In this document: one piece after another, positions 116 through 55,269 of the stretch
Layout: the number at the start of each line of letters is the position of its first letter
Position numbering within the stretch: the first letter of the stretch is position 1
Assembly (NCBI GenBank): GCA_001567275.1
Contig: LNBX01000025.1
Coordinates: forward strand, 141,454 to 205,453
From: Bacteroidetes bacterium OLB10
Lineage (GTDB): Bacteria; Bacteroidota; Bacteroidia; AKYH767-A; OLB10
DNA: 64,000 nt
Direction: 5' to 3'
Notes under the pieces: generated by a model
Told to the model about the DNA's origin: nothing
Database searches by the model: none
The model's input: only the letters and a program-made list of their open reading frames with translations
Program-made: the position numbers and the translations under genes

Positions 116-1393
116 ATGGCTGAGATAGTAAGAATGCCTAAAATGAGTGATACTATGACAGAAGGCGTAGTAGCTAAATGGCATAAAAAGGTGGGCGACA
201 CCATTAAGTCAGGCGATCTGGTTGCTGAGATAGAAACCGACAAAGCAACAATGGAATTTGAAAGTTATCAAAGCGGAACATTGCTTTACATTGGTGTGCC
301 TGAAGGAAAAGCAGGTGCAATCAATTCAGTGTTGGCAATTATAGGTGCACCCGGTGAAGATTATATACCTTTGCTGGAAGCTGAAGAAAAAAACAAGGCA
401 GCAGAACAGTCTGAAGCAGCAAAAAAAGAAGAAAAACCTGCTCCTAAAACTGAATCGAAACCTACACCCAAGGCAGAACCTAAACCGGAAGTTAAAACTG
501 TATCTTCACCAGCTCAAAGTCAGAGTGATTCACGCTTAAAAGTATCACCTCTTGCGCGCTCCTTAGCAGAACAAAAAGGCATAGACCTTTCAAAAATAAA
601 AGGCAGTGGCGACAATGGTCGCATCATCAAGAGAGATATTGACTGGTTTAAACCCGGAAGTTATGTTGCCGGAGGCATGATGACTACTGCACTCACTCAC
701 GAATCTTTTGAAGAGCAACCTGTTTCGCAAATGCGAAAAACCATTGCACGCAGACTGAGTGAAAGTAAATTTACGGCACCACATTTTTATCTGACACTTG
801 ACATAGAAATGAGCCGCTGCATTGATGCAAGAGAAACCATCAATGCTGCCACAGGAAGTAAGGTGTCGTTCAACGATTTTGTAATTAAAGCATGTGCAAC
901 TGCACTGCAGCAACATCCAAAGGTTAATTCGTCATGGATGGGAGATACTATTCGCACCAATCATCACATCAATATAGGTGTGGCCGTGGCTGTTGAAGAA
1001 GGTCTGTTGGTTCCTGTTGTACGTTATGCCGATTCGAAAACGCTTACACAGATTAATGCTGAAGTAAAAGAGTATGCTGTTAAAGCAAAAGATAAAAAAC
1101 TTCAGCCTGCTGACTGGGAAGGCAACACTTTTACCATCTCAAATCTTGGCATGTTTGACATCGAAGAATTTACTGCCATCATCAATCCTCCTGATGCATG
1201 TATTCTTGCTGTAGGCGCAATTAAATCCGTTCCTGTGGTAAAAAACGGACAAGTAATGGCAGGTAATGTAATGCGTGTAACACTAAGTTGTGATCATCGC
1301 GTGGTGGATGGTGTAACAGGAGCTAAATTCCTCAATACAGTGAAAGGATATTTGGAAAACCCTGTTTTGTTATTGGGTCAGTCATCTATCTGA
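116..1393 (+). CDS. pdhC: Dihydrolipoamide acetyltransferase, E2 of pyruvate dehydrogenase
   Basis: This 425-residue E2 core protein transfers acetyl groups from its lipoyl arm to CoA, making acetyl-CoA in the cytoplasm. A single N-terminal lipoyl domain (about residues 1-80) carries the lipoylation motif ETDKATME with Lys43. A Lys/Pro/Glu-rich linker follows (about 90-140), then the E1/E3 peripheral binding domain (about 142-178, VSPLARSLAEQKGIDL...GRI.KRDI). The catalytic acyltransferase domain fills about 195-425 and has the active-site motif DHRVVDG with His394 and Asp398. The ATG is at 116, 17 bases after the E1 alpha stop, so the two are probably co-transcribed. Its last 8 bases overlap the 3' end of the convergent giant gene. 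A branched-chain 2-oxoacid E2 is the alternative, but the E1 neighbour favours pyruvate dehydrogenase. Confidence 0.93.
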   Translation: MAEIVRMPKMSDTMTEGVVAKWHKKVGDTIKSGDLVAEIETDKATMEFESYQSGTLLYIGVPEGKAGAINSVLAIIGAPGEDYIPLLEAEEKNKAAEQSEAAKKEEKPAPKTESKPTPKAEPKPEVKTVSSPAQSQSDSRLKVSPLARSLAEQKGIDLSKIKGSGDNGRIIKRDIDWFKPGSYVAGGMMTTALTHESFEEQPVSQMRKTIARRLSESKFTAPHFYLTLDIEMSRCIDARETINAATGSKVSFNDFVIKACATALQQHPKVNSSWMGDTIRTNHHINIGVAVAVEEGLLVPVVRYADSKTLTQINAEVKEYAVKAKDKKLQPADWEGNTFTISNLGMFDIEEFTAIINPPDACILAVGAIKSVPVVKNGQVMAGNVMRVTLSCDHRVVDGVTGAKFLNTVKGYLENPVLLLGQSSI

Positions 1394-4300
1394 TTAAAGT
1401 AACCTGCCCCTGATACGTGTGCGGAACGCCAAACTGATCTGTTACTTTCATAGTATAAACATATACACCCTGAGCACAGAGTGCTCCATTGTAAAGATTC
1501 TGTCCGTTCCATTTTCCGTTGAGTGAGTTTGTTTCAAAAACTTTATTTCCCCACCTGTTAAATATCAACATATTTACTGCGGTAATGCCATAACCGGTAG
1601 CAAAGAACTCATCGTTATGTCCATCCTGATTAGGTGTGAATGCATTGGGGATATACAATGTAAACACTCCTTCAACTACAATTTCGCGCATGGTAGTATC
1701 GGTACATCCATGTTCAGTCGTGACAATCTGCGTAATCTCATACTTACCTGTATCTGCATAAGTATGTGAGGGAAACTGATTAATGGATTGTTCACCATCT
1801 CCGAAATTATAATACCAAGATACTGCCAGTTTACTGCTGTCAACAATGCTAATTTCAGGATGCAGAATGTTCACTTTCTCGGGTTGAACTGCGAAGGAAG
1901 CAACAGGCAATGGATATACCTGAATAATATCAGTTAGATTTACTGAATCAACACACTGTTGTGGTGTTGTCGCAGTTAAAGTTATGGAATAAACTCCTGC
2001 TTGCTGATAAACATTCACAGGCAATAATAAATCAGAAGTATTTCCATCACCAAAGTTCCAGTTAAGAATAGTTCCCGGAGGTAAAACAGACTGATTGCTG
2101 AATTCAACACTCAATGGCATACATCCTTCCATCATAAGTGGTGTAATATCAATTTGCGGAGTAGGATAAACATGAACCGGAACAGAATCTGCTGCAGGAA
2201 TCACCGTACACTGATCTGTTACCATCACTGAAACACTTCCTGTTTGTGCAGGATAAACGGTTGCTGTTGCCTGCTGACTTCCATCAGACCATAAATAATA
2301 ATAAGGTCCGCCATTTCCACCTGAAGGATTGGCTGTAAGCGTAACACTTTGTCCTGAACAAATAGTATCACTTCCGACTAAAGTAACATTCAGTGGAGGG
2401 AAAACAAATACTGAAATACTGTCTGTTGCAGAACGGCATTGATTAGAATCTTCGGCATAAATATAATACACCTGCGTAGTTGAAGGTGAAACAGAAATAC
2501 CTGATGTATATTGATTGTTATTCCAGTAATAAATATATCCTCCTGTTCCTCCTAATGCTGTACATGAAATCATTGTTTGCTGTCCGATACATAAAGTATC
2601 ATCAGGCGAAACCTGAATAACCACTTCAGTTGGCTGATTCACTGTGAAAGCTCTTATCTTGGTACATCCGTGTGCGTCAGTAACTGTTACAACATACACA
2701 CCTGCTGTTACAGAATCTAATGGGTTTACTGAGGAAGAGTTACTCCACAAATAAGTATAAGGTGAAACTCCACCGGTTACATTCAATGTTACCATTCCAT
2801 TATCATATCCATAACATGTAGTATTATTAATAACACCGTCAGGTTTAATCTGAGCAGGTGATGTAATCTGACCTGTAAACTGAGATGAACAACCATTGGC
2901 GTCTGTAACGGTAGCAGTATATACACCAACCGTTAATCCTGAAAGTTGTGATGAACCTGATTGTCCGTTACTCCATGCATAAGAATAAGGAGAAGTTCCG
3001 CCATTCACATTTGCAGTAAGTGCTCCATCAGATCCTCCGTAACAACTTACATCTGTTGTTGTAAATGTATTGGCCAATGGAATGGGTGCATTGATTTGTA
3101 AGCTATGATTCAGTACACATCCATGTGCATCGGTAATTGTAATCTGATAATTGCCTGCAGCAAGTGATGTTGCATAATATGTATTTCCCGAATTAGGTGA
3201 CCACTGATACTGATAAGGAGACGTTCCTCCGCTAACGGTTAATATGGCCAGACCATTGGCGCCTCCAGAGCATGAGCTGTTTCTGATACTATCTGTAACA
3301 GCAAGCGATAAAGGTTGATTGACAAATAAACTGTCAGCATACTGACAATTATTGGCATCAGAAATAATGTAACTATAATTGCCTGACGCTACAGAAGCCA
3401 GATTAAAGTTGCTTGATCCATTGTTCCATTCAATAGTATAAGGGAAGGTTCCTCCTGAAGGAGTTACCGTTACAGAACCATCAGAAGATCCATTGCATAA
3501 TGGGGCTGCAATATTATCAGAGCCGATAAGTAATGACGGTTCTGAAATTGCGAAGTTTGCTTTGGCAATACAGTTGTTAGTGTCTTTTACATAAATGATA
3601 TAAGCGCCTTTATTCAACCCGATAAACTGCTGACTGCTTTGTGAGGTGCTGAAATTGTTTAAAGAATATAATAAATTTCCATTCCCTCCTGAAGTAGTAA
3701 TACTTACAGATCCATCTGCTGCTCCAAAACATGAAATGTTGGTCTTGTTTAATGAAAGAATATCAGGCCCGGTTAAGTCAGGCAAAAAAACTGGTGTCAG
3801 CTTTGTACATTGATGATTATCTTTCACTGCAATATAATACAAGCCTTCTGTCCGGTTTATAAAACTGTTTGCAGGTGTGTAAACATGAGTACTGTCAATG
3901 CTAAACAAATAAGGCACTGTTCCACCGGTTGCCTGCAAATTTATTATTCCGTTATTTTTTGAACATGTTTCAGGAGTTATGCCAATTGAAAGATGCAATG
4001 AATCAGGTTGAGATAAATATATCACAGAATCACTACGGCAATTATTCTGATCAACAACTGCAAGCTGATATGCGCCTGAAGTTAATTGCGTAAAGTTCGT
4101 CCCCGTTACAAAATTATTTCCATTGTCAATACTGTAATTTAATGCTCCTGTTCCACCTACTGCAGTAATTTTAATTTCTCCATCATTTCCATTAAAACAT
4201 TTAATATTTTTTGTTTGAATATTAACAATGGATGGAGCTAACAGATTGCTCAGCGAAACTGATTTTTGGTTTACACATCCGTTAGTGTCTCTTACTGTTA

Positions 4301-7300
4301 TCAGATATGTTCCGGCCAAAAGTCCTGCATAATTAAATTGATTAAAAAAAGCACCATTATTAATGGAAGTAAGCAATACACCTGAGCCGCCACTTGCCTG
4401 AATGGTAATATCTCCATTAGCCTGACCACAGGCCGGATTTGTAACAGAAAATGATACATTAATTGGAGGTGGTGTGGCGATAGTTATTTGCTTTGCATTA
4501 ATACATCCTGCTGAATCTTTCACAGTAACAGTATAGTTTCCTGCTGCAAGAGAATTGAATACTGAATCAGTACCAAAAATTCCATTATTGATATTAAATA
4601 AAAGATTACCTGATCCACCTGAAGCAATTGCAAGCAGACTACCATTTGCAATTCCATTACATATTAAGTCATTTTTGATAATAGTATCCAGTACTGGTCC
4701 ACTGACAGAAGGTATAATTATTGTATAGCTCTTCACACATGAGCGAATATCTTTTATATCTAATGTATAACTTCCTGCTGCTAAATTTGAAATAATATTC
4801 TGTGGTGAAAATACACTGTTATTTAAACTGTAAAGTAAACTACCAGTTCCACCTGAAGCAGAAATATCTATTGCCCCATTGCTCTGCTGACAATTTGCTC
4901 CTGTAATATTAAAATTAGCTCCTATTGGTGGTGGCTGTGTAAGAGTAATCAAAGTGTCCACGGTACAATTGTTTTCATCTTTAATTCTAATCTGATAATT
5001 TCCTGCTGCCAGAGAACTGAAAGCTGATGATGACTGATAATTTACACCCTGATCGATACTGTATTGCAGCAACCCTGTTCCGCCAGTAGCAGTAAGATTA
5101 ATAAAACCATCCGTTCCGCCATTGCAGGTTATATTGCCACTAACAGCAATCTGTATTACAGGTGCAGAAAGATTCGGCAGAGAAATTATTCCGTTAGCTG
5201 AACAGTTATTGCCATCCTTTACATAAATCTGATAAGTGCCTGCCGGTAAACTACTGAATACAGATGAGCTTTGATAGATAACACTATCCAGAGAATAAAG
5301 ATAACTTCCGGTTCCTCCGGTAACCACAAATTGCAACACTCCGTTATTCTGACCACACGTTGCAGGTGTTATGCTTTGATTTATTGTCAATACATCGGGC
5401 TGAAGAATTACAGCAGAAGCAGTGGTAACACATCCGACTGTATCTGCTACAACAATGTTATAATTTCCGGCAGCCAGATTATTGAAACTACCTGAAGCAT
5501 AAGTTGTCGTTCCATTATCAATGCTATATGAAAGCGGCCCTGTGCCTCCTGTTGCCTGTATAGTGATGCCTCCGGAAAGATTTCCATTACATAATACATC
5601 TGTGGTAAGAATACTATTTATCACAGCACCGTTAATACTGCTTACCGATGCATTAAAATTCTGCATACATCCGTTTGCATCCTGAATAGTAATCTGGTAA
5701 TTACCTGAAACAAGATTTGAGAATGTAGTTGCACTTGTAAATGGTCCGTTATTCAAGCTAAATAATAAACTTCCGGCTCCTCCTGAAGCTATTACTGTTA
5801 CAGCACCATTGGCCAAAGTACAATTAGAAGACTGAGTTTGTATGCTTGCCGTAATTGCATCAGGCTCACTCACGGTCAGGATAGTATCAGTCACACAATT
5901 ATTGGTGTCTTTAACATAAACGTGATAGGTTGCAGCTGCCAATCCTGAAAAAACAGGAGAAGTCTGATATATAATTCCGTCAAGGCTATACTGTAAATTT
6001 CCATTCCCTGTGCCTGCAACAGTTATGCTGCCGTCAGCAGATTGATAACAACTCAGAGGTTGAATCTGAACTGCATTTATTACAGGTGCCACTAATGATT
6101 GAATATTGACGGCAAGTGTAGCAGTGCAGTTATGTAAATCCGTAACCTGAACTGTATAATTACCTGCATTGAGTTGATTGAATACTGAATCTGTTACAGA
6201 TGATGCACCATTAAGACTGAACAGATATAGAGGCGTTCCTCCTGTTGTGCTCAATGCAATTGTGCCATTGCTGTTCAGGCATGTTTCATTCGTAATGGTA
6301 GTTTGCACTGCAAGTGGATCAGGTTGATATAATGCAACAGTGTCCACAGCTGTACATTGATTGGTGTCCTTTACTACGACAATATAACTTGCTGCCGGAT
6401 ACTGACTAAAAACAGGTGAGCTAAAAAATGATAATCCATTATCAATGCTGTACTGCAATGTACCGTTTCCACCCGAAGCCTGAATGACTACATTACCATT
6501 GCTGTCACCAAAGCATAATGGGTCAGCCGTATTAACTGCATTAATAATCGGTGAGTGATATACAGGAATTGTAACCTGTACTGTATCTGCACACTGATTC
6601 TGATCCATCACGATCAGGGTATGGTCACCACCTGCGAGATTTTGTATATTCATAGTACCGACATACGTCATCCCACTATCGGCACTGTACATTAAAGCAC
6701 CTGTACCACTGACAGCAGTAATACTCACAGAGGCATTATTAATACCATCACAAATTTGTGGGGTATAGCTGCTCCCTGTTATACGTGGTCCCGGAGCGTC
6801 ATCAATGGTAACGGTTGAGGACTTTTCGCAGTTGTTTGCATCGCGAATAACAATTTTATAGGTTCCGGATATCAGACCAGTAAAGGTTGAAGCGGAAGAG
6901 AAGGTAATACCACCATCTATACTGTATTGATATGGAACAACACCTCCGCTTCCTGTCATATCAATACTTCCGTTGGCATAACTGCAGGTGGTGTTGACAG
7001 CACTTGAAGACAGAGTAAGTGCAGGAGGTTGTGATAAGGTAATTACTGAATCTGCCACACAACCTATATCATCTTTTAAACGTAATGAATAGCTTCCTGC
7101 AATAAGGTTTGTAAATGTATTAACACTTTGGGTGGTTAATCCTCCGTCAATACTGTACAAAATAGGTGGTGTACCATCTGCAGTTATTATTGTTATAATT
7201 CCGGTATTGGTGTTTGTACACAATACATTCTGAATTTGAATATCCGAAAACACAGGTGATGTTGATGGAAGGATATTATAAGTTCTGGGTGGAGCAGTAC

Positions 7301-10139
7301 ATCCGTTAGCATCTTCAACCTGAAAAGTTACATTTCCGGATGGTAACCCTGTAAAGATATTATTAAATGTCCAGGTTGCACCTCCATCCATTGAATACTG
7401 CAAAGGAGCCACACCGTTAGCAGGGTGTAAACTTACTACACCATTATCTAACCCACACGATGTTCTCATTACGTCAGCTTTTATAATAATTGGAGAAGGT
7501 TCTGTAACTATGGCAAGTTTATTCACACGACAATCGTTGTTGTCTTTGATGACTACATGATAACTATTTGCTGTGAGTGAATTAAACTGATTGATTACTC
7601 CGAATGAAGTGCCTCCATCAATGCTATACAACAACGAGCCAACTCCACCTGAACCATATACTGAAATTTCTCCGTCAGCGGAATGATAACAGGTTAAGTT
7701 TTGTGACTCCAGACTGTCTATCTTAGGAGCATTGATGGTATTTACAATTACTGTATCATTTACCAGACAACCATTTCCATCCTCTACTTGAATAAAATAA
7801 ATTCCCGGGCTAAGATTTGTAAACTGATCGGTAGGTTGAAAGGTCAAACCTTTATCAATGCTGTAAAGTAATGTACCACTGAAACTACCTGTAACAGTTA
7901 GCTGAATAATTCCATTATTGAGATTACAATCAGATGGTGTAGGCACAGAAATAAGGTTGACAACAGGTGGCTGATTTAATATTACTGTTGAATCATCTTT
8001 ACAACCAAAAACATCTATCACACTAACCTGATAAACTCCAAAAGGTAAATTATTAAAAACATTCTGGCTTTGTGAAATCAAACCCGATCCGTTATTCACC
8101 TGAAAAGTATAGGGTGCTGTACCTCCTGTAGCTCCAAGAGTTATTGAACCATCACTTCCATTATAACAATTCACATCCTGATGTACAATTGATGTTATTG
8201 CAGGAACTGTACTGGGGTCAATCGTTGCAGGCAATGAAACCGAGCAATTGTGATTATCTTTTACAACTATGGTATAATTGCCTGCGGCAAGATTTTTAAA
8301 CTCATTGTTCGACTGAAAACTAACACCACCATTGTTACTATAAGTGTAAGGAGAAGTTCCTCCCTGTGCTGTTATGCTGATTGCACCATTGTTTAATGCA
8401 CATTTGGTTGAAACAGTGGTAAGTGTTGCAGTAAGTTGTTGTGGTGCCACAATAGCAAATGATGTTGTGCTTTGACAACCATTGATATCTTCTGTAGTCA
8501 GATAATAAATTCCGGGAGGCAAGTTGTTAATGTTACTGCTTCCACCCATAGGACCATTTTGCTGTATGACTACGCTCGCGGCATTTTTCCAGAAATATTT
8601 CCATGGCCCACTCCCGTTACCTGTTCCTGTGGCCGAACCCTGATTCCCATAACATAAAGGTTGAGTAATGTTAACAGAAGGTGGAATACAACATGCAAGT
8701 GTTGCATATAAATCGTGTACCGGATCATTGGAACAGGCAGATGAAGTCCAAGAGCCGCTTTCGCCATCTGTAAAGGTATTTATCAGCACATTAAGATTTG
8801 CACCAAAAATGCAATTAGCCGTTGAGAGTGTATTTATTCTCCAACAGAAATTAATATTACAATTCGGTCCAATGTTATCACCGAAATTATTTCCGGGATT
8901 TGTATCTACAACATTATTGATGTTGCCACTTGCTGACTCAAAGAAAAAGCCCGGACCAAATGTCTGATTATTCGCTGTTGAAGTAATTGGGTTATTATAC
9001 CATGACCATGTTCCGTTTCCTGAACAAGACGTTGGAGGCATTGCAACAAGTGTGGACAAATCCCATCCGGGTCCAAACGAGGGAACAACACCATGCAGCC
9101 AGTTAGATGATGTTGGATTAAAATCAGTTATGTTAAGACAAAAAGTAACCTGCTGTCCTGCCAGATATATTCCGTTAACGGGAGGTGGATTTACACTCAA
9201 CGTACTTTGTGTAACACATCCGCTGCAATCAAAATTGTTCTGTAATGAGAGAGTAAAATTGCATTGATCACTAATGGTACCACCACTTACCTGCAAAAAA
9301 TATGTTCCTGCTGCAAGTCCACCAAAAGTTGTATTCAACGTTCCTCCTCCCCCTATTGCACAACCTCGGGGAATGAGAGTATTGCAACTCGTTCCTGAAT
9401 ACAATCCTACCTGTGGCGTATTCATTCCATTGATTGTAATATTAAGTATCGGTGCGGTAAGAGTAAACTTATACCATACATCAGCAGCAGGATTTGTCAT
9501 ATTGCCAACCGGTTTGCAACCCTGCATGGCATTATAAGGCACTTCAGCAGTTGCGCACAGATTGGAAGTATTAAAAACAGCAACTGCGCCAATGCCTACC
9601 GGGCAAGCCTGTGGCAAAGGCAGCTGACCTAAATTTTCAGCACCGCTGCATGCATCATTTGCAGGCGGAGAGCCACCATTACACGTTGGACAATTGTTTA
9701 CCGGACAATTCACACATCCGATTATGGCTTTCCATCCCGGTTTGTTTACAGTATAATCTGATGTAAATTTTATGGTAAGACATCCTGATGTGGCTGTAAC
9801 AACTCCGGGTGAATTGGTACCTGTGTAGGTTCCGATGAGTGGTGCACCTGTAGTTGATCCATTGTAAATATACAGAAAGTCGAAATCCTTTTCCAGAATA
9901 AACGACTGAAATGTAAGTTGCACACACTTTCCGGGTTGATCGCTGCAGATTGTATAAACAAAACTTTCGTTATTGGAATAATTTGCCAAATCGCCACCGC
10001 TGTCAAAAAAATTTCCTCCGCACTGACTAACCACGCCATCAGACATGATGATATCCTGTGCAACAGTTGAAAATGAAAAACAACTAAGCAATAACCATAT
10101 AGTTATTCTTGTATACAATGCCCTGATATTAAACCCCAA
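1386..10139 (-). CDS. Giant SprB-repeat secreted protein with T9SS type B sorting domain
   Basis: This is a 2,917-residue putative surface adhesin or gliding-type filament. A signal peptide (IWLLLSCFSFSTVAQ) leads into a CUB-like domain (about 30-150, GGDLANYSNNESFVYTIC), a PPC-like region (about 160-300) and a further Cys-rich region to about 490. About 26 SprB-type repeats of roughly 77 residues follow (about 494-2510). Typical elements are a DGSI or NNGxI start, YSIDxG, F..L..G.Y and D.N.C. Two Ig-like segments, two PKD domains with NFGDG (about 2620-2800) and a C-terminal gliding-associated domain (IPNAFTPNQDGHNDEF...IFNRWG) come last; this is a T9SS type B signal. No ATG or GTG can start the frame. 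TTG at 10139 or TTG at 10118 must be used. No PorP/SprF-like partner lies next to it. Function is inferred from family resemblance; gliding itself is not shown. Confidence 0.9.
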   Translation of the reverse strand: MGFNIRALYTRITIWLLLSCFSFSTVAQDIIMSDGVVSQCGGNFFDSGGDLANYSNNESFVYTICSDQPGKCVQLTFQSFILEKDFDFLYIYNGSTTGAPLIGTYTGTNSPGVVTATSGCLTIKFTSDYTVNKPGWKAIIGCVNCPVNNCPTCNGGSPPANDACSGAENLGQLPLPQACPVGIGAVAVFNTSNLCATAEVPYNAMQGCKPVGNMTNPAADVWYKFTLTAPILNITINGMNTPQVGLYSGTSCNTLIPRGCAIGGGGTLNTTFGGLAAGTYFLQVSGGTISDQCNFTLSLQNNFDCSGCVTQSTLSVNPPPVNGIYLAGQQVTFCLNITDFNPTSSNWLHGVVPSFGPGWDLSTLVAMPPTSCSGNGTWSWYNNPITSTANNQTFGPGFFFESASGNINNVVDTNPGNNFGDNIGPNCNINFCWRINTLSTANCIFGANLNVLINTFTDGESGSWTSSACSNDPVHDLYATLACCIPPSVNITQPLCYGNQGSATGTGNGSGPWKYFWKNAASVVIQQNGPMGGSSNINNLPPGIYYLTTEDINGCQSTTSFAIVAPQQLTATLTTVSTKCALNNGAISITAQGGTSPYTYSNNGGVSFQSNNEFKNLAAGNYTIVVKDNHNCSVSLPATIDPSTVPAITSIVHQDVNCYNGSDGSITLGATGGTAPYTFQVNNGSGLISQSQNVFNNLPFGVYQVSVIDVFGCKDDSTVILNQPPVVNLISVPTPSDCNLNNGIIQLTVTGSFSGTLLYSIDKGLTFQPTDQFTNLSPGIYFIQVEDGNGCLVNDTVIVNTINAPKIDSLESQNLTCYHSADGEISVYGSGGVGSLLYSIDGGTSFGVINQFNSLTANSYHVVIKDNNDCRVNKLAIVTEPSPIIIKADVMRTSCGLDNGVVSLHPANGVAPLQYSMDGGATWTFNNIFTGLPSGNVTFQVEDANGCTAPPRTYNILPSTSPVFSDIQIQNVLCTNTNTGIITIITADGTPPILYSIDGGLTTQSVNTFTNLIAGSYSLRLKDDIGCVADSVITLSQPPALTLSSSAVNTTCSYANGSIDMTGSGGVVPYQYSIDGGITFSSASTFTGLISGTYKIVIRDANNCEKSSTVTIDDAPGPRITGSSYTPQICDGINNASVSITAVSGTGALMYSADSGMTYVGTMNIQNLAGGDHTLIVMDQNQCADTVQVTIPVYHSPIINAVNTADPLCFGDSNGNVVIQASGGNGTLQYSIDNGLSFFSSPVFSQYPAASYIVVVKDTNQCTAVDTVALYQPDPLAVQTTITNETCLNSNGTIALSTTGGTPLYLFSLNGASSVTDSVFNQLNAGNYTVQVTDLHNCTATLAVNIQSLVAPVINAVQIQPLSCYQSADGSITVAGTGNGNLQYSLDGIIYQTSPVFSGLAAATYHVYVKDTNNCVTDTILTVSEPDAITASIQTQSSNCTLANGAVTVIASGGAGSLLFSLNNGPFTSATTFSNLVSGNYQITIQDANGCMQNFNASVSSINGAVINSILTTDVLCNGNLSGGITIQATGGTGPLSYSIDNGTTTYASGSFNNLAAGNYNIVVADTVGCVTTASAVILQPDVLTINQSITPATCGQNNGVLQFVVTGGTGSYLYSLDSVIYQSSSVFSSLPAGTYQIYVKDGNNCSANGIISLPNLSAPVIQIAVSGNITCNGGTDGFINLTATGGTGLLQYSIDQGVNYQSSSAFSSLAAGNYQIRIKDENNCTVDTLITLTQPPPIGANFNITGANCQQSNGAIDISASGGTGSLLYSLNNSVFSPQNIISNLAAGSYTLDIKDIRSCVKSYTIIIPSVSGPVLDTIIKNDLICNGIANGSLLAIASGGSGNLLFNINNGIFGTDSVFNSLAAGNYTVTVKDSAGCINAKQITIATPPPINVSFSVTNPACGQANGDITIQASGGSGVLLTSINNGAFFNQFNYAGLLAGTYLITVRDTNGCVNQKSVSLSNLLAPSIVNIQTKNIKCFNGNDGEIKITAVGGTGALNYSIDNGNNFVTGTNFTQLTSGAYQLAVVDQNNCRSDSVIYLSQPDSLHLSIGITPETCSKNNGIINLQATGGTVPYLFSIDSTHVYTPANSFINRTEGLYYIAVKDNHQCTKLTPVFLPDLTGPDILSLNKTNISCFGAADGSVSITTSGGNGNLLYSLNNFSTSQSSQQFIGLNKGAYIIYVKDTNNCIAKANFAISEPSLLIGSDNIAAPLCNGSSDGSVTVTPSGGTFPYTIEWNNGSSNFNLASVASGNYSYIISDANNCQYADSLFVNQPLSLAVTDSIRNSSCSGGANGLAILTVSGGTSPYQYQWSPNSGNTYYATSLAAGNYQITITDAHGCVLNHSLQINAPIPLANTFTTTDVSCYGGSDGALTANVNGGTSPYSYAWSNGQSGSSQLSGLTVGVYTATVTDANGCSSQFTGQITSPAQIKPDGVINNTTCYGYDNGMVTLNVTGGVSPYTYLWSNSSSVNPLDSVTAGVYVVTVTDAHGCTKIRAFTVNQPTEVVIQVSPDDTLCIGQQTMISCTALGGTGGYIYYWNNNQYTSGISVSPSTTQVYYIYAEDSNQCRSATDSISVFVFPPLNVTLVGSDTICSGQSVTLTANPSGGNGGPYYYLWSDGSQQATATVYPAQTGSVSVMVTDQCTVIPAADSVPVHVYPTPQIDITPLMMEGCMPLSVEFSNQSVLPPGTILNWNFGDGNTSDLLLPVNVYQQAGVYSITLTATTPQQCVDSVNLTDIIQVYPLPVASFAVQPEKVNILHPEISIVDSSKLAVSWYYNFGDGEQSINQFPSHTYADTGKYEITQIVTTEHGCTDTTMREIVVEGVFTLYIPNAFTPNQDGHNDEFFATGYGITAVNMLIFNRWGNKVFETNSLNGKWNGQNLYNGALCAQGVYVYTMKVTDQFGVPHTYQGQVTLIR

Positions 10140-10243: not shown

Positions 10244-11155
10244 TTAACTAATGTTTTCTCCAGTCCTTTTTATAAAAAAACATCCTGCAATCAGGATTAT
10301 GACTGATACTGCAAGCCACCACCCCTGTCCCTGTTCGGTTCCAAAGGTATCCTGATTAAATGATAATTGGCCATGCTGTTCCATCCAACTGAAAATTACA
10401 GCAGATGCATTGTTAACAAAATGAGCTGTTATTGGTGCCCAGATACTTCCTGTCCAAACCAACAAATATCCCAGAAAAACACCTAATGCAAAACGAGGAA
10501 TAAAACCTAAGAACTGCATGTGAATGGCACTGAAAATAATTGCAGTAATTATCACTGACAGATGCAAACGTCCTGTTGCCTGCTGAAAAAGTTTTTGAAA
10601 TACTCCTCTGAAAATTAGCTCTTCACCAATTGCAGGCAGCAAACCTATCATCAGTAAATTTATGATCAGGTCAGATACTGAATTCATTTTCAAAAATTCT
10701 TCTGTAAGTTTTGCAGCCTGTTCTTCCATAGCCCTGATAGCGTTTTCAACTGATTGCAACGATGAAGGCAAATGCAATTGACTATTCCATTCCAGAAGAA
10801 AATTTATCAAAGGAGTTGCTGCAAGCGTTAAAATGAGAATAATGATTAAGCTGCTAAATTTTACCCTCCTGAAAGAAAGATATTCGAAAGAATTGATGGA
10901 GAATAAATAAGCAGCAAGCGCAGCAGGAACAATCATCATACCCACCTGCGCCATCACCTGCATAAATTTCAACTCGTCAACAGTGGCATTTGCTCCTTGC
11001 ATGGCTGTCATCAATTCTGTCAAATCTTTACCAAAAACCCATGCCGTAAGTGGTATGCTGATGATTGAAAAAAGTCCGAAAAACACGAGTATAAGTCCGG
11101 TAAAAATGATTAATTTTAAGACGGAATCCGTCTGCTTCAGATATCCTTTCAACAT
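10244..11155 (-). CDS. CPBP family intramembrane glutamic endopeptidase
   Basis: This is a polytopic membrane protein of about 303 residues from the CPBP (Abi, CAAX-protease-like) family. The family's three conserved sites are all visible: GEELIFRGVF (the EExxxR site), FSAIHMQF (FxxxH) and HFVNNAS (HxxxN). Several hydrophobic helices precede and surround them. The frame opens at 11245, but that would run into the divergent dus gene; the ATG at 11155 (MLKGYLKQTDS) gives a compact protein and leaves a 50-base divergent promoter region. Substrates are unknown. In bacteria such proteins have been linked to prenyl-protein-type cleavage, bacteriocin immunity or regulated proteolysis; nothing here decides among these. 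Confidence 0.85.
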   Translation of the reverse strand: MLKGYLKQTDSVLKLIIFTGLILVFFGLFSIISIPLTAWVFGKDLTELMTAMQGANATVDELKFMQVMAQVGMMIVPAALAAYLFSINSFEYLSFRRVKFSSLIIILILTLAATPLINFLLEWNSQLHLPSSLQSVENAIRAMEEQAAKLTEEFLKMNSVSDLIINLLMIGLLPAIGEELIFRGVFQKLFQQATGRLHLSVIITAIIFSAIHMQFLGFIPRFALGVFLGYLLVWTGSIWAPITAHFVNNASAVIFSWMEQHGQLSFNQDTFGTEQGQGWWLAVSVIILIAGCFFIKRTGENIS

Positions 11156-48149: not shown

Positions 48150-48527
48150 GCTCAGGGACTGGATTTAATGTTTCAACAGGATAACTCAAACCCATGGGTT
48201 ATGTAAAAGGTTTTTGGCTGCGCTGCAAACACAAACCTGCCAGCTTAACCGAAGCGAACTGCAACCGTTAAACCCTCCGTGCATCCCATCGCCATGTATT
48301 ATTATTTTTTTGCCACCGCAACTGTGTGTAAAAAGCCGGCCGCACAAATGCCTTTCGCATTCGTAAGTACAATTAAAATCAAATAAAGAACCGCGCACAA
48401 AATTAGAGTGCTGCATTTCGCTCATGCTATTGCAAAACCAAAAATGCACACACAAATTTTCTCCACTCCGGAAAAAAACTACTCCTTGAAGACCATTACC
48501 GTTGCCGGTTTGGGCAGGTTTCATAAA
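48150..48527. other. Gene-free interval with atypical sequence (possible dispersed element)
   Basis: This 378-base gap between the Gate protein and the first duplicated T9SS gene carries no convincing gene. An open frame on the minus strand (48186-48524) is rich in Cys, His and Gly and does not look like a real protein. The sequence is locally GC-richer (GCCGGCCGCAC near 48336) with poly-T interruptions, and holds a perfect 12-base palindrome AACCCATGGGTT at 48189-48200. It resembles repeated non-coding elements more than unique intergenic DNA; that needs a whole-genome comparison. Confidence 0.35.
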
Positions 48528-50033
48528 CTATTCCTTTATAATTTTTAAAGTTTCAACATTATCCCCTCTCAAGATTTTACATAAGTAAATCCCATTTGCT
48601 AATTTGCTAATATCAATTCTTTTATACTGGCTCCATGGTGCAATATATTCTTTATAAACCATATTCCCCATCACATCAAATATCTCCAACTCACCACTCA
48701 CACTCTGTACATTAAATTGCAAAGTAAAATTTCCTGTTGTTGGGTTAGGCATAGCTCGTATATGTCTGTTTTCATTTTCATTTTCCGTTACTCCTACCAA
48801 ACAAGTAGTACAACTCGTATCGCATCCCAAAAAGTAATTGGGATGATTGGGTAACGTATTAAAATATACTGATTGTAACTGTACACTGTGTTGGTTCACA
48901 TTGCAGCCTAAGCCAATAACATCAGGGTTATCTATCGTGTGCATGTGCATAGTTCCATTACCTGTTGTAATGTATATTTTGCCATCGGGTGCTAATGCTG
49001 ATAATCCAAACAAAGTTGCGAAACCACTTGGAAAACCGGGAAAAACTGACATAAATGAGTCATACGTTGCAACTATTAGTTGTGAGGCGGGAATATTTGA
49101 AGCAGTTAAATCAAATTGATAAACGTGATAGGTATTGGAAACATATAAAGCGTTTGAGCCCGGTGAAATAGCCATGCCAACATTGTATCCGTTTTCAAAG
49201 GGCATATTGACGTGAACTGCATTACTTAAAGTTGCAGTGCACCTGTCAAAATCAAAAATATCCAAGCCTCCGTTTACATAATAATAGGCATATTTTTTTC
49301 CATCAGGTGAAAACCATGCCTGCCCTGCATCATCTCCTCTAACAACACCTATATTTTGAGAGTAAGGTCCTAAAATAACAGTAGGTGTTACCAAGAACTT
49401 ATAAAATTTATTGGTATTTACTCTATGAATCATTACCCACCAGTCTCTCCCATTAGCATGTCTGGTTGCAGCTATTTTGCCAACATTCATAGAGTCTGTT
49501 AATAAAGAAATATTTTTACTTGTCACCGCTCCTAATCCTCCGTTTCCGTTCATATCAATTGTTGTTAAATAAAAGTTATAGGATATACTATTAGGTATAG
49601 GTTGTGAATATCCGTCAGCAGAATTATGGAAAAGATAATAAAGATTACCGCTATTGGGCTTTGGAATAATTAATGCTCCCTGTGGTATTGCAAAACCATC
49701 TGATGCAAAATTGGCGTAAGCTCCGGGGTTAAGCCCGCTGCCATTTTGCATAGTATCATTTGTTGCATCTGCAATATAATAACCATTAGTGTAAAACAAC
49801 ATATTACCTGAAACATCAGAAATATTTCCATGAGTATGCCTGAAATCCATTTCTAAACTGTCATAAGATAAAGCAGGGGTACCATTGTAAAAATTTATTA
49901 ACGTCTGACCTCCAGGATAACCCGCAGCGCTTTGATAACCCATCAGCCAATTATTACTAATGCCTTGCTGTGCAAAAGCTTCACAAAAAGCTAAGAGCAT
50001 TAAACCTGCTATATAAATTCTTTTGGAACTCAC
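48528..50033 (-). CDS. T9SS-sorted secreted protein, tandem paralogue (downstream copy)
   Basis: This is a 501-residue secreted protein with signal peptide (IYIAGLMLLAFCEAFAQ). A propeller-like body carries phrases such as YDSLEMDFRHTHGNISDVSG, TNGYYIADATNDTMQNGSG, AWFSPDGKKYAYYYVNGGLD and ALAPDGKIYITTGNGT. A Cys cluster CDTSCTTCLVG precedes the T9SS type A sorting domain (MPNPTTGNFTLQF, IFDVMGNMVYKEY, LANGIYLCKILRG, ending ETLKIIKE). The start is GTG at 50033. It is nearly identical to the gene at 50171-51676 in its second half, while residues about 30-45 and 105-190 differ. Function unknown. Confidence 0.85.
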   Translation of the reverse strand: MSSKRIYIAGLMLLAFCEAFAQQGISNNWLMGYQSAAGYPGGQTLINFYNGTPALSYDSLEMDFRHTHGNISDVSGNMLFYTNGYYIADATNDTMQNGSGLNPGAYANFASDGFAIPQGALIIPKPNSGNLYYLFHNSADGYSQPIPNSISYNFYLTTIDMNGNGGLGAVTSKNISLLTDSMNVGKIAATRHANGRDWWVMIHRVNTNKFYKFLVTPTVILGPYSQNIGVVRGDDAGQAWFSPDGKKYAYYYVNGGLDIFDFDRCTATLSNAVHVNMPFENGYNVGMAISPGSNALYVSNTYHVYQFDLTASNIPASQLIVATYDSFMSVFPGFPSGFATLFGLSALAPDGKIYITTGNGTMHMHTIDNPDVIGLGCNVNQHSVQLQSVYFNTLPNHPNYFLGCDTSCTTCLVGVTENENENRHIRAMPNPTTGNFTLQFNVQSVSGELEIFDVMGNMVYKEYIAPWSQYKRIDISKLANGIYLCKILRGDNVETLKIIKE

Positions 50034-50049
50034 AATTTAAAATTATAAA

Positions 50050-50078
50050 AAGGAAGAACTGTTTAACAGTTCTTCCTT
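50050..50078 (-). terminator. Strong terminator between the two T9SS paralogues
   Basis: A 12-base-pair perfect stem (AAGGAAGAACTG with CAGTTCTTCCTT, loop of 5) is followed on the minus strand by TTTATAATTTT. It lies just after the sorting-domain remnant at 50087-50163. Confidence 0.85.
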
Positions 50079-50086
50079 TAAAAATG

Positions 50087-50163
50087 TTAACGAATAATTA
50101 TCAATTTACCGTTTGCAATCAAAACACCATTATTGCGCAATTCGTAAAAATATACAGCAGGCT
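50087..50163 (-). pseudogene. Remnant of a T9SS type A sorting domain
   Basis: Directly behind the stop of the upstream paralogue (TAG at 50171-50173) the minus strand reads in one frame KPAVYFYELRNNG, then VLIANGKLIIIR and a TAA at 50089-50087. This is the typical end of a T9SS C-terminal domain (VYFYELRNNG..I..GKLIIIR), with no gene attached. It looks like the surviving tail of an older T9SS gene that lost its body when the paralogue was inserted or recombined in. The original terminator (50050-50078) is still behind it. Confidence 0.65.
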
Positions 50164-50170
50164 TCATAAA

Positions 50171-51676
50171 CTATTCCTTTATAATTTTTAAAGTTTCAAC
50201 ATTATCCCCTCTCAAGATTTTACATAAGTAAATCCCATTTGCTAATTTGCTTATATCAACTCTTTTATATTGACTCCACGGTGCAATATATTCTCTCCAA
50301 ACCATATTCCCCATCACATCATAAATCTCCAACTCACCACTCACACTCTGCACATTAAATTGCAAAGTAAAATTTCCTGTTGTTGGGTTAGGCATAGCTC
50401 GTATATGTCTGTTTTCATTTTCATTTTCCGTTACACCTACCAAACAAGTAGTACAACTCGTATCGCATCCCAAAAAGTAATTGGGATGATTGGGTAACGT
50501 ATTAAAATATACTGATGGTAACTGTACACTGTGTTGGTTCACATTGCAGCCTAAGCCAATAACATCAGGGTTATCTATCGTGTGCATGTGTATAGTGCTA
50601 TTACCTGTTGTAATGTAAATTTTGCCATCGGGTGCTAATGCAGATAGGCCAAATAAAGTTGCAAAACCACTTGGAAAACCGGGAAAAACTGACATAAATG
50701 AGTCATACGTTGCAACGGTTAGTTGTGAGGCGGGAATATTTGAAGCAGTTAAATCAAATTGATAAACATGAAAAACATTGGAAACATATAAAGCGTTTGA
50801 ACCAGGAGAAATAGCCATGCCAACATTGTATCCGTTTTCAAAGGGTATATTGACGTGAACAGCATTACTTAAGGTTGCAGTGCACCTGTCAAAATCAAAA
50901 ATCTCCAATCCTCCATTTACATAATAATAGGCATATTTTTTTCCATCAGGTGAAAACCATGCCTGACCTGCATCCCATTGCCTTGTTATGCCAATATTTT
51001 GTGAATAAGGTCCTAATATTGCAGTAGGAGTTATAAGCAATTTATAAAATTTATTTGAATTAACCCGGTGAACCATTACCCACCAGTCCCTTCCATTGGC
51101 ATGGCGGGTAGCAGCTATTTTGCCACAGTTTAAAGTGTCAATTATAACTTGTACATTTTTGGTTGTAACAGCGCCTAATCCTGCATTTAAAGTCATATCA
51201 ATGGTAGTCAAATACAATTGATAGGCTCTGCTTCCAATTCCTCCCGGATAGTTATCCACCGAACCATGAAACATGTAATAAACAGAGCTGCTTAATGGCT
51301 TAGGAATAATTAATGCTCCCTGTGGTATTCCTAAACCATCACTAAAAGCATTTGCATAAGCTCCCGGGTTTAGCCCGCTGCCATTTTGCATGGTATCATT
51401 TGTAGCATCTGCAATATAATAACCATTAGTGTAAAACAACATATTACCTGAAACATCAGAAATATTTCCATGAGTATGATTAAAATCCATTTCTAAACTG
51501 TCATAGCTCAATACTGGAACACCATTATAAAAATCAATATTTGTTTGCCCAAACGGAACTCCTCCCCAACTTGAATAACCCATTAGCCAATTGTTGTTAA
51601 TGCCTTGTTGTGCACAGATATTGCCCAATTGTAACAATACACAACTGTATGTAAGAATTATTTTTCTTGCGCTCAT
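50171..51676 (-). CDS. T9SS-sorted secreted protein, tandem paralogue (upstream copy)
   Basis: This is a 501-residue secreted protein, paralogue of the gene at 48528-50033. The ATG at 51676 (MSARKIILTYSCVLLQLGNICAQQG) overlaps the upstream stop as ATGA and gives a clean signal peptide, so it is preferred to the ATG at 51715. Over the last ~255 residues I count about 13 differences from the other copy. The sorting domain (MPNPTTGNFTLQF, IYDVMGNMVWREY, LANGIYLCKILRG) is almost the same. The variable parts lie at about 30-45 and 105-190. Function unknown; a surface or secreted propeller is likely. Confidence 0.85.
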   Translation of the reverse strand: MSARKIILTYSCVLLQLGNICAQQGINNNWLMGYSSWGGVPFGQTNIDFYNGVPVLSYDSLEMDFNHTHGNISDVSGNMLFYTNGYYIADATNDTMQNGSGLNPGAYANAFSDGLGIPQGALIIPKPLSSSVYYMFHGSVDNYPGGIGSRAYQLYLTTIDMTLNAGLGAVTTKNVQVIIDTLNCGKIAATRHANGRDWWVMVHRVNSNKFYKLLITPTAILGPYSQNIGITRQWDAGQAWFSPDGKKYAYYYVNGGLEIFDFDRCTATLSNAVHVNIPFENGYNVGMAISPGSNALYVSNVFHVYQFDLTASNIPASQLTVATYDSFMSVFPGFPSGFATLFGLSALAPDGKIYITTGNSTIHMHTIDNPDVIGLGCNVNQHSVQLPSVYFNTLPNHPNYFLGCDTSCTTCLVGVTENENENRHIRAMPNPTTGNFTLQFNVQSVSGELEIYDVMGNMVWREYIAPWSQYKRVDISKLANGIYLCKILRGDNVETLKIIKE

Positions 51677-52101
51677 ACAGCCAAACATTGTCCCGCATTC
51701 ACATTTACTGTCCATTTATACTTATTATCAGCAGGAGTAAAAAATGGTGGCGAAGCAGATAGTCGTACGCACGCATCGGAAGGTTGAAATTGCGAATTAA
51801 TTAGTTCATTAGTTGCAGGATTTTTATTCACCGCATTGTCTCCACATGGAATGTATGTTGGTGATGGAGTTACAGGCAATGAAATAATATTATTACCATT
51901 TCTCACAATTGCACTTAATTCAAATTCAAAAGATAAGGGAAATGGTTGGTCAAGAATCATAAAACCGGAAACTGTATTCTCAGCGCAAATATCCGCTTGT
52001 GCAATTGGATTCAATGCGATTGTAATTTGCTGAGGCAAAGCATTCAAAAAACTTAAACATAACAATATGTTTGCTGTTGCTATGGTGGTAATTTTTATCA
52101 T
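51673..52101 (-). CDS. Hypothetical secreted protein
   Basis: This is a 142-residue protein with a signal peptide (ITTIATANILLCLSFLNALPQQ). The mature part is beta-rich and Cys-containing (ADICAENTVSGF, TYIPCGDNAVNKNP, PSDACVRLSASPPFF, KYKWTVNVNAGQCLAV). I do not recognise the family. It lacks a sorting domain and may be a truncated N-terminal part of a larger secreted protein. The stop overlaps the start of the T9SS paralogue by four bases, so the two are translated together. No clear promoter is seen upstream. Confidence 0.6.
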   Translation of the reverse strand: MIKITTIATANILLCLSFLNALPQQITIALNPIAQADICAENTVSGFMILDQPFPLSFEFELSAIVRNGNNIISLPVTPSPTYIPCGDNAVNKNPATNELINSQFQPSDACVRLSASPPFFTPADNKYKWTVNVNAGQCLAV

Positions 52102-52223
52102 GTCGGTAACTATTAAATTCGTTTAAATAATTGTTGATTTTTTTAACTAAATGATTTATAGAGGTTTAAAACTAATTCCAAATATATATGAAAATTTTAT
52201 TAAAAATTCAAAAGCTCATAGAT
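52102..52223. other. AT-rich intergenic stretch
   Basis: AT-rich sequence upstream of the hypothetical secreted gene. I see no gene or clear promoter element here. Confidence 0.4.
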
Positions 52224-52496
52224 TTATTTTAAGTGGGCGTTCCTTTCCTTTTCCGATGAAACCCCGATGCTCGGGGCGTAGAGGATTTCCGCTCCAATCA
52301 GTAACGCAAAATCAGGTGGCATGATCACAAAATTTACAACCTTAATCTCACCTGCCTGTATCTTTACACCTTCAATAACAAAAGGTTCAAAGTCCGGATG
52401 AGCAGCAATTATGTCTTTTACATCAGGATATAAAACCTCACGATACTTACCGATACTTACCTTCGTTATATCTACTTTTTTTATACTTTCGCAGCC
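52224..52496 (-). pseudogene. Gene fragment resembling a carboxypeptidase-regulatory-like domain
   Basis: The minus strand is open for 90 codons here but has no start codon before an internal ATG. The middle reads YREVLYPDVKDIIAAHPDF, then EPFVIEGVKIQAGEIKVVNF, which looks like the end of a carboxypeptidase-regulatory-like (CarboxypepD_reg) domain. The upstream part contains a perfect 10-base tandem duplication (CGATACTTAC twice, 52441-52460), which shifts the frame. The end of the frame runs through a small hairpin CCCCGA-TGC.-TCGGGG (52262-52276) and is probably not protein. It overlaps the hppA promoter. I take it for debris of a lost gene. Confidence 0.4.
52484..52491 (+). promoter_or_regulatory. 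-7 element TACTTTCG upstream of the pyrophosphatase gene
   Basis: TACTTTCG is one base off TAnnTTTG and lies 30 bases before the ATG at 52522. It is followed by CAGCC, as at prs. The best -33 candidate is TTCG at 52462. Confidence 0.45.
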
Positions 52497-52521: not shown

Positions 52522-55269
52522 ATGAATCAAATTGTTTTTGTTGTTCCTGTCCTGGGTATAGTTGCCCTGATTTATATGTTTTTAAAAGCTTCGTGGGTAG
52601 GAAAGCAAGATGCCGGTGAGCAAAACATGCGTGAACTGGCCGGTCATATAGCTAATGGTGCTATGGCCTTTTTAAAAGCTGAATGGAAAATATTAAGTTA
52701 TTTCGCTGTCATAGCAGCATTGTTGCTGGCTTATTCAGGAACACTGGAAGGCACAGCAGAACATCCTGTACACTCCAGCCCCGTTATTGCAATAGCATTT
52801 GTAATAGGTGCGGTGTTTTCAGCTACTGCAGGATATATCGGAATGAACATTGCCACCAAGGCCAATGTGCGTACTGCACAGGCTGCACGCAGCAGTTTGG
52901 CAAAGGCGCTGAAAGTTTCATTCACAGGAGGTGCTGTAATGGGTCTTGGTGTTTCCGGACTTGCAGTGCTTGGTTTAGGATCGTTATTTATTGTTTTTTA
53001 CCAGTTGTTTGTTCCCGCAGGTGCAGCCATCACCGGTGTGGAAATGAAAAAAGCTATTGAAGTGCTTGCAGGATTTTCATTGGGTGCAGAGAGCATTGCC
53101 TTGTTTGCACGTGTAGGCGGTGGTATTTACACTAAAGCTGCTGACGTAGGTGCTGACCTGGTAGGAAAAGTAGAAGCAGGAATCCCTGAGGACGACCCTC
53201 GTAACCCTGCTACCATTGCCGACAACGTGGGTGACAACGTAGGTGATGTTGCCGGTATGGGTGCCGACTTGTTCGGCTCTTATGTGGCTACCATTCTTGC
53301 CACCATGGTATTGGGTCAGGAAATTGATGCTTCCGGAGATAAATTCGGAGGGCTGTCGCCAATATTGCTGCCTATGCTGATTGCAGGTATGGGTATCATC
53401 TTCTCTATTGTGGGAACATGGTTTGTTCGTATTAAGAATGAAAACGACAGCGTACAGGGTGCATTGAATATGGGCAACTGGTCATCTATTATTCTTACAG
53501 CTATAGCAAGCTATTTCGCAGTAACTTATTTATTACCTGAAAAACTTGTTATCCGTGGTTTTGAATTTACACCGATGAATGTTTATCTGTCAATTGTAGT
53601 TGGTTTGGTTGTTGGTGCACTGATGAGCATTATCACAGAGTATTATACTGCCATAGGCAAACGTCCGGTACTAACCATCGTGAAACAAAGTTCTACCGGT
53701 CATGCTACCAACATCATTGGTGGTCTTGCTGTGGGAATGGAATCAACAGCGGTGCCTATGATTGTGCTGGCAGGCGGAATTTATTTTTCGTATGCACTTG
53801 CAGGATTGTACGGTGTGGCCATTGCTGCTGCCGGTATGATGGCAACTACTGCCATGCAACTTGCCATTGATGCATTCGGACCCATTGCAGATAACGCAGG
53901 TGGCATTGCCGAAATGAGTCAGTTGCCGAAAGAAGTTCGTCAGCGTACAGACAATCTGGATGCAGTAGGAAACACCACTGCTGCAACAGGTAAAGGTTTT
54001 GCCATTGCTTCAGCAGCATTAACATCACTTGCATTGTTTGCTGCCTTTGTAGGCGTTGCAGGCATCAGTCATATTGATATTTACAAAGCAAATGTATTGG
54101 CAGGATTGTTTGTTGGTGCCATGATACCTTTTATCTTTTCGTCACTGGCAATAGCTGCTGTAGGTCGTGCTGCCATGAGCATGGTAGAAGAAGTGCGCAG
54201 ACAGTTTCGCGAAATTCCGGGTATTATGGAATATAAGGCCAAGCCTGAATATGAAAAGTGTGTAGCTATCTCAACAGAAGCGTCCATCCGCGAAATGATT
54301 GCTCCTGGTGCACTTGCACTGATTGTGCCTGTGTTGGTAGGATTTCTTTTCGGACCTGAAGTGTTGGGTGGTGTGCTTGCAGGAGTAACTGTTTCGGGTG
54401 TGCTGATGGGAATGTTTCAGAGTAATGCAGGCGGTGCATGGGATAATGCAAAGAAATCATTTGAAAAAGGAGTTGACATCAATGGTCAGACTTACTACAA
54501 AGGTTCAGAGCCTCACAAAGCATCAGTAACCGGTGACACTGTAGGTGATCCTTTTAAAGATACCAGCGGACCTTCTATGAACATTCTTATCAAACTGATG
54601 AGTATAGTTTCGTTGATTATTGCTCCGCATATTGCTTCAGTTGGAAATAAGGATGGATTTAGTTCAGCAAACGAAGCTAAAGTAACTTCAGCAATAACTC
54701 CTGCAACATCCGCTGCTGCAAGCAATACAACTCCTTTAATGGATATAGCAAAGATGAAAGGAAATATTGCTCTTGACAATAATCACACCTGGGTACAGTT
54801 CAGCATCAGTCATTTTCTTACAAGTGCCAATGGAGCTTTACAGGTTGACTCAGGTTATTTCAATATTACTGATGATTTGACCACCAGTTCACTTTTTGTT
54901 TCAGCCAATACAAAATCTATTGACACCAAGAATGTAAGACGTGATAATCACTTACGCAGTGCCGATTTCTTTGAAGTTGACAAATATCCTTCGATGACAT
55001 ATAAAGCAACAAAAATTGAGCTTGCTCCTGAAGGATCTGAATACCGCTACATTGCAAAAGGTGATTTAACTATCAAGGATGTTACAAAACCTGTTGATTT
55101 GAAATTTAATTATGTTGGATCTGTATTCAATGAAAATGCAGGTACAGATGCTCATAGCTTTATCGGTATTGCAGAAATCAACCGTACTGATTTTGGTGTT
55201 GGCAGCTCAGGCCCTACCGTTGGTGATTTGGTAAAAATTAATTTCTCTGCCGAAGGTTATCTCGATTAA
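52522..55269 (+). CDS. hppA: Membrane-bound ion-pumping pyrophosphatase fused to a YceI-like domain
   Basis: The 915-residue protein joins two domains. Residues 1 to about 705 form a complete membrane pyrophosphatase, which splits pyrophosphate to pump H+ or Na+. Motifs are [53 protein letters not shown] and, at about 483, [18 protein letters not shown]. The AATG there suggests the K+-dependent subfamily. After a Ser/Thr/Ala linker (about 705-745), a YceI-like lipocalin domain follows to the end ([46 protein letters not shown]). It shares these blocks with the free YceI at 59913-60455. No frameshift or stop separates the parts. In structural models of the family the C-terminus is periplasmic, which suits YceI. 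What the domain binds is unknown. Confidence 0.92.

Follow-up and report, generated by a model that had tools for sequence, protein, structure and literature searches.

Mosaic divergence between two adjacent paralogues of type IX secretion type in Bacteroidetes bacterium OLB10, and within-genome homogenisation of the sorting domain in their family

The window analysed here, a 64,000-nucleotide stretch of contig LNBX01000025.1 of Bacteroidetes bacterium OLB10 (GCA_001567275.1), carries two adjacent minus-strand genes for paralogous proteins of the type IX secretion system (T9SS) type. The first, g1 (48528-50033), starts with GTG and encodes 501 amino acids (aa). The second, g2 (50171-51676), encodes 501 aa from MSARK, or 514 aa from an upstream ATG, and its start codon overlaps the stop codon of the upstream open reading frame (ORF) in the motif ATGA. 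Both frames are open throughout, and each has a signal-peptide-like start and a C-terminal T9SS sorting domain that matches Pfam Por_Secre_tail (PF18962) at E 1.9e-12. The description of the pair as two adjacent 501-residue secreted paralogues, given in an earlier sequence-only reading, was thus borne out. Overall, the two proteins are 84% identical.

Divergence between g1 and g2 is arranged in blocks. Where some 13 differences had been counted over the last ~255 residues, we measured 12/256 (8/175 plus 4/81) over codons 246-501. This near-identical tract extends 14 nucleotides (nt) beyond the stop codons (g1, 48514-49298; g2, 50157-50941; both minus strand) and includes repeat D1 (48514-48813 and 50157-50456, 96% identity). 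Two strongly differing blocks, first placed at about residues 30-45 and 105-190, were also found, with measured extents of codons 1-60 and 106-245 (the latter at 49299-49718 in g1 and 50942-51358 in g2, minus strand). Between them lies an internal near-identical tract, codons 61-105 (minus strand; g1, 49719-49853; g2, 51359-51493, at offset 1640 and within repeat D3), in which 1/45 residues differ.

Silent changes, defined as synonymous alterations of codons that encode the same residue in g1 and g2, were counted along the alignment. They amount to 2/6 in codons 1-22, 13/26 in codons 23-60, 5/41 in codons 61-105 and 37/93 in codons 106-245, followed by 15/164 in codons 246-420 and 6/73 in codons 421-501 (21/237 for codons 246-501). 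By the NG86 method, non-synonymous (dN) and synonymous (dS) divergence are 0.24 and 0.94 for codons 1-245 and 0.024 and 0.16 for the remainder; the dS of the variable blocks is close to saturation, and the poorly alignable codons 1-22 give a dN of 1.00 and a dS of 0.88. The longest identical DNA run measures 83 nt, compared with at most 67 nt in 2000 permutations. A search for recombination breakpoints placed a break in silent change near codon 238 (permutation p 0.001), and a separate scan detected a conserved island at aligned codons 57-105 that was equalled in 0/500 permutations. The alternation of conserved and variable blocks is not chance. Synonymous divergence is unequal along the gene, which does not fit simple drift after a single duplication and, with the permutation tests, supports ectopic recombination as foreseen in the gene conversion proposal of the sequence-only reading.

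The order of events can be approached through relatives; hereafter G000 denotes the genome of the window, G001, G002, G003 and so on those of relatives, and L-numbers fetched loci. The nearest outside copy, in G002, is 81% identical. In codons 106-245, 14/140 residues differ between g1 and the G002 copy, compared with 42/139 between g2 and G002 and 41/139 between g1 and g2; because g1 is closer to G002 in this block, the heads of g1 and g2 must have parted before G000 and G002 split. In the near-identical tracts the G002 copy is about equidistant from g1 and g2, and in codons 246-420 silent change to G002 (74/157 and 78/157) far exceeds that between g1 and g2, so that the shared tracts are younger than the species split. 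Two histories would give this: an old g2 overwritten by g1, or a new duplicate that received old blocks. In the second case g2 would be a recent tandem copy of g1 whose codons 1-60 and 106-245 were written from an older paralogue or a transferred gene, a history that we regard as quite possible, if short of probable. It accords with the grouping of g1, and not g2, with the G002 copy in codons 106-245, and with the continuation of near identity beyond the stop codons, as duplication would give. Codons 23-60 speak against it, since g2 is there somewhat nearer to G002 (8/38 residues differ) than g1 is (12/38). Moreover, a search of 41 genomes with the diverged block of g2 alone found no donor, the best non-self matches being g1 (71%), G002 (70%) and G003 (67%).

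Further copies, for which the sequence-only reading had advised a search, exist in the genome: G000 contains 22 family matches, of which 16 approach full length, and in ten additional cases the match is confined to the sorting domain of another ORF. Matches were obtained in 41/41 genomes of the relatives search (own included), the weak ones being to the sorting domain only. A head-only query matched 68/392 genomes drawn from the phylum, mostly within larger ORFs (at most four candidates scored per genome). From the fetched loci we assembled 113 nearly complete family genes, 109 of which were usable for start and junction counts and 111, of ordinary length, for pair comparison. Family genes lie near contig ends or on very short contigs at several places in G000 (C3, C4, C12, C22, C23, C29, C38, C44 and the start of C25). 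The copy on contig C23 (L062) shows no nucleotide difference from one on C3 of G001 (L073) in the compared blocks, whereas the flanks of the window differ by 7-9% between these genomes; this identical copy reflects either a recent transfer or a mis-binned contig.

Enough comparable codons were available for 2427 of the 6105 possible pairs among the 111 genes. A near-identical sorting domain (at most 15% silent change from codon 425 to the end) under a diverged head (at least 35%) was found in 23/295 within-genome pairs and 8/2132 between-genome pairs, while the reverse pattern, a near-identical head with a diverged sorting domain, occurred in 0 pairs within and 0 between genomes. The 23 pairs are drawn from 7 of the 16 genomes with at least two members; the eight comprise six G000-G001 pairs and two G012-G016 pairs (one genus). 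Of the 40 genus genes, 9 find their best head match in their own genome, and 27 their best sorting-domain match. In within-genome pairs whose overall identity is 85% or less, 25-codon windows reaching at least 93% identity are concentrated in codons 401-500, where they make up 28-35 of 453-495; elsewhere they never exceed 8 of ~498. The sorting domain is thus homogenised within genomes, while heads stay diverse and have their closest matches in other species. g1 and g2 fit this family-wide tendency as an unusually long-tract case.

Family members commonly have a partner. An upstream ORF ends between -30 and +10 nt from the start codon in 70/109 members (32/39 in the genus), with an overlap of exactly 4 nt in 48. 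Judged by the last residues printed, these upstream partners usually end in a T9SS-like tail, and their lengths range from 2648 residues down to short C-terminal fragments. The typical member forms a two-gene module with a giant T9SS partner, or its C-terminal fragment, whose stop codon overlaps or adjoins the start of the second gene. The 2648-aa partner, from G001, matched no solved structure up to E 1. In the window, a 142-aa ORF (51673-52101, minus strand) is probably an N-terminal remnant of the partner gene: its sole outside match in 21 genomes is to the region near the start of the G001 partner (E 7.5e-6, 37%). Directly upstream of g1, a 26-codon segment (50087-50167, minus strand) is 88% identical over 26 aa to a G002 partner sorting tail, and the partner thus seems reduced here to N-terminal and C-terminal scraps. 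In G002 (L071, ~10325-10561) all that is left of the partner is an open frame of 78 codons, its signal-peptide-like start running directly into the sorting tail; this frame stands ahead of a g1-like hairpin. The nearest neighbour of the head agrees with that of the partner tail in 23/65 modules and with that of the gene's own sorting domain in 12/65 (25/60 and 23/60, respectively, within single genomes), which hints that partner end and head may travel together.

The pair and its partner remnants lie within a 4.3-kb inserted segment (48203-52464) that is missing from the same site in G001 and G003. In G001 the two flanking genes adjoin, with alignments that overlap by five bases and flanks 91-93% identical; in G003 48 unaligned bases separate them. 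GC content is 0.34-0.37 inside the segment and 0.39-0.46 around it. The best copies listed for these two genomes are 55% (G001) and 63% (G003) identical. In G002 the copy adjoins a 627-aa gene; the corresponding gene of G000 lies on contig C24, for which no family member is listed. The second neighbour of the G002 copy had no match in G000, G001 or G003, which leaves the G002 site without an exactly matching empty site. Because of the empty sites in G001 and G003 and the different neighbours in G002, the g1/g2-type gene seems to be accessory and to change place. GTTAT occurs at both edges (48198-48202 and 52465-52469), which fits a 5-bp target duplication or microhomology. Transposition by a recognisable element was dropped as an explanation; no transposase ORF was noticed in the segment, although no dedicated search was made.

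As to export, Por_Secre_tail is present in 34/34 aligned members, and SprA_N (PF14349), representing SprA, the sole machinery component sought, was found in G000 at E 4e-152 and in 0/14 control genomes. The start of g1, read by eye as ...EAFA|QQGIS and not by a predictor, agrees with the Q-rule, i.e. a glutamine after signal-peptide cleavage (PMC10653852). The fold proved less tractable. The suggestion of a propeller-like protein is weakly supported in the family, where 11/34 members have PD40 repeats, and not in g1 or g2, neither of which has them. An AlphaFold model of g1 from five sequences (mean pLDDT 45) was too poor to use, and a solved-structure search with the 34-member profile matched only the sorting-domain region below E 0.01.

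Many junctions between partner and family gene contain a hairpin. Strong hairpins (symmetric score at least 19) were found at 34 of the 109 usable junctions, namely in 19/32 genus members with an adjoining partner, 3/7 without one, and 12/70 members of other genera. The 19 genus hairpins have 13-24 pairs and lie inside the signal-peptide codons. In 14/19 the stem begins 16-23 nt past the start codon, about where an initiating ribosome ends, and in 14/19 it begins 12-19 nt past the partner stop. Among control junctions of other ORFs 3/55 were strong, and these three are, by sequence, broken or distant family members; among other ORF starts 7/515 were strong, two being family members and the remainder mostly short ORFs. 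None of 39 window genes had a strong hairpin in the first 90 nt (highest score 12.5). The hairpin beat synonymous shuffling in 20/32 genus genes (at most 1 of 200 shuffles as good), the other 12 junctions failing to do so; in these 20 it is favoured by codon choice. Codon block shuffling was also beaten in 20/32, in a slightly different set of genes. At inner positions, 223/228 (98%) are paired when an arm is set against its own partner arm and 1654/4104 when arms are swapped, at a mean arm identity of 0.28; this loop-centred comparison is biased toward pairing, the 19 members having been chosen for strong hairpins, a bias that the shuffles and junction controls do not share. Paired changes preserve the stem between related members: the L064 and L078 stems, for instance, differ by 2 double and 2 single changes with 0 broken of 19 pairs, and 37 comparisons, all between members chosen for strong stems, gave 129 double, 29 single and 17 broken pairs. 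RNAalifold on a MAFFT alignment of the 19 junctions gave zero common pairs, which speaks against a structure common to the alignment; since MAFFT works from sequence, of which the stems share little, their registers need not match. Across the 34 strong hairpins, G.T pairs exceed A.C pairs (23 vs 5, p 0.0009), and RNA of the gene strand is therefore indicated.

The g1 hairpin (50049-50079, minus strand) lies 8 nt past the partner-tail stop and just before the g1 start. It is terminator-like, with 14 pairs followed by TTATAATTTT, a folding energy of -20.9 kcal/mol and a z of -5.1; the counterpart region in G002 reaches z -2.0, with 9/200 shuffles as good. Terminator-like sites in the stretch number 2, compared with 3.7 expected by chance. 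Seven of 39 window genes have an after-stop hairpin scoring at least 15, at +12 to +25 and mostly with A-rich and T-rich flanks, and the distance of the genus stems from the partner stop is about that of these ordinary terminators. Strong hairpins also occur 41-109 nt past the start in G031 (L106, L107), G007 (L119) and G028 (L126), and the element may shift position between genera. No Rfam family was assigned to the hairpin: the best match fell well short of the family's threshold and lay on the opposite strand.

The simplest reading of these features may be that the partner's terminator became overlaid by the signal-peptide codons of the second gene. We tentatively propose such coding-embedded terminators, in which the intrinsic terminator of the first gene would sit inside the overlapping second gene and its palindrome would also encode the signal peptide. 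The hairpin would lower transcription of the second gene unless it is kept open by ribosomes arriving from the partner. Having completed the giant partner, these would restart on the overlapping ATG and cover the hairpin, which selection would keep while its sequence turns over. Large amounts of the second protein would then be produced only where the partner had been translated to its end, so that partner integrity would be checked in arrays broken by recombination. An effect on translation (restart at the overlapping start codon, or pausing in signal-peptide synthesis) or on mRNA stability, instead of termination, has a modest chance of being correct. The position of most stems relative to the start codon would suit it, and only 3/6 strong hairpins in L077 and L078 are terminator-like on the gene strand. 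Against it stand the resemblance to window terminators in distance from the partner stop and the T-rich run after the stem, which is clear for g1 and weak in several others.

Together, the data are probably best explained by old heads, later ectopic recombination, an inserted and shrunken array, and family-wide homogenisation of the tail. A shrunken module array was inserted between two conserved genes in the G000 lineage. The heads of g1 and g2 are old paralogues, and ectopic homologous recombination (gene conversion, or exchange in unequal pairing) later homogenised codons 61-105 and 246-501; equivalently, only the old blocks were left different. Across the family, the sorting domain is homogenised within genomes while heads stay diverse. 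These heads may recognise, bind or adhere to something outside the cell, and a shared export tail would let them be exchanged without loss of export.

Several points weigh against this explanation. Recursive splitting found only one significant break, not a second. A fresh duplicate that took up old blocks would look the same as an old g2 altered by conversion. No pair passed the thresholds for sorting-domain sharing in 9 of the 16 genomes with at least two members, and the g1/g2 pair is itself not among the 23, because its near-identical tract extends far into the head. Mantel correlations of head with partner tail and with own domain are about equal (0.76 and 0.78). Finally, the genomes are drafts, at least in part metagenome assemblies, with many family copies near contig ends; the family arrays are incomplete for this reason, and the true arrays are probably longer, broken by the assembler.

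With such genomes, the near-identical tracts could also be an artefact, produced by collapse or chimerism of repeated genes. The frequent position of family genes near contig ends and the identical copy on C23 would fit an artefact, but the pair lies inside a 209-kb contig, its tracts retain the 5/41 and 21/237 silent differences, and sorting-domain sharing recurs in seven genomes, so that we consider it very improbable. Least probable of all, to the point of being hardly tenable, is a history free of recombination, in which exposed loops came under diversifying or relaxed selection after a single duplication. Some portions of the variable blocks do vary across the family at large, but silent change is about fourfold less frequent in the conserved blocks, and diversifying selection, also raised by the sequence-only reading, found no support, with dN above dS in just 1 of 23 usable 40-codon windows (codons 361-400, 0.037 vs 0.021, four nucleotide differences).

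Elsewhere in the window, an ORF of 2886 aa occupies 1386-10046 (minus strand). A 915-aa ORF at 52522-55269 (plus strand), which we take to resemble a membrane pyrophosphatase, has an extra C-terminal domain. Its residues ~742-893 match separate short ORFs elsewhere, presumably YceI-like. The full-length ORF is matched in G001 and G003, and both parts are spanned by a 947-aa ORF in G012.

Mosaic surface genes are known from other bacteria. In Neisseria pilE/pilS and Helicobacter babA/babB, surface-gene paralogues are made mosaic by ectopic homologous recombination. The present genes share with them the within-genome mosaic tracts, but silent partial donors are not in evidence, since each of g1 and g2 reads open from a start that resembles a signal peptide. 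In Rhs/CdiA orphan-module arrays, repeated modules come after a full-length gene, and each opens with a piece of it; the present arrays resemble them in this succession of a full-length gene and fragment-led modules. A Rhs/CDI toxin module was rejected: unlike Rhs/CdiA, the arrays showed no toxin family in the scans made with Pfam (seven proteins, six partners or fragments) and NCBIfam (two partners), and scanned fragments end in an export tail, found by Pfam in 5/6 partners or fragments. In Porphyromonas gingivalis, T9SS surface genes (Kgp, HagA, PG0411 and others) have adhesin domains rearranged by recombination, with gene conversion discussed, according to the relevant passages of PMC5266723. 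The likeness lies in T9SS-exported Bacteroidota surface proteins reshaped by recombination; as those passages present it, the P. gingivalis case concerns allelic variation between strains, whereas here within-genome paralogues in two-gene modules have a homogenised sorting domain under diverged heads.

For the hairpins, a close parallel is pil1 of Streptococcus gallolyticus, where a terminator hairpin ahead of surface-protein genes is opened by the translating ribosome (PMC3894217, relevant passages). This is the mode proposed here from sequence; pil1, as described there, uses a separate leader peptide of changing length, whereas in the present modules it is the second structural gene whose signal-peptide codons contain the hairpin, just after the point where stop and start overlap. 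In Vibrio parahaemolyticus, read-through of an intrinsic terminator into vtrB provides a case of a leaky terminator between genes that sets downstream expression, and the discussion in that paper adds that a stop codon just upstream weakens a terminator (PMC10971746). The vtrB case has its terminator where the upstream operon ends, and the available sections of the paper describe no placement inside coding sequence, which is the arrangement proposed here. In the searches made of the open-licence literature, as far as titles and abstract openings go, neither sorting-domain homogenisation nor buried hairpins are described; PMC7323717 contains a single mention of concerted evolution. Conversion among surface-protein paralogues is known; what is new is its centring on the tail, together with the hairpins.

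Both the sorting-domain account and the hairpin idea are drawn from sequence. Concerted evolution of the sorting domain would explain, in a testable way, how Bacteroidota combine many different heads with a single export tail: heads would be traded through recombination at the tail. If the buried hairpins terminate transcription, one stretch of DNA would be maintained for two roles at once, export signal and stop signal, an unusual case, and expression of the secreted protein would be tied to complete translation of its partner.

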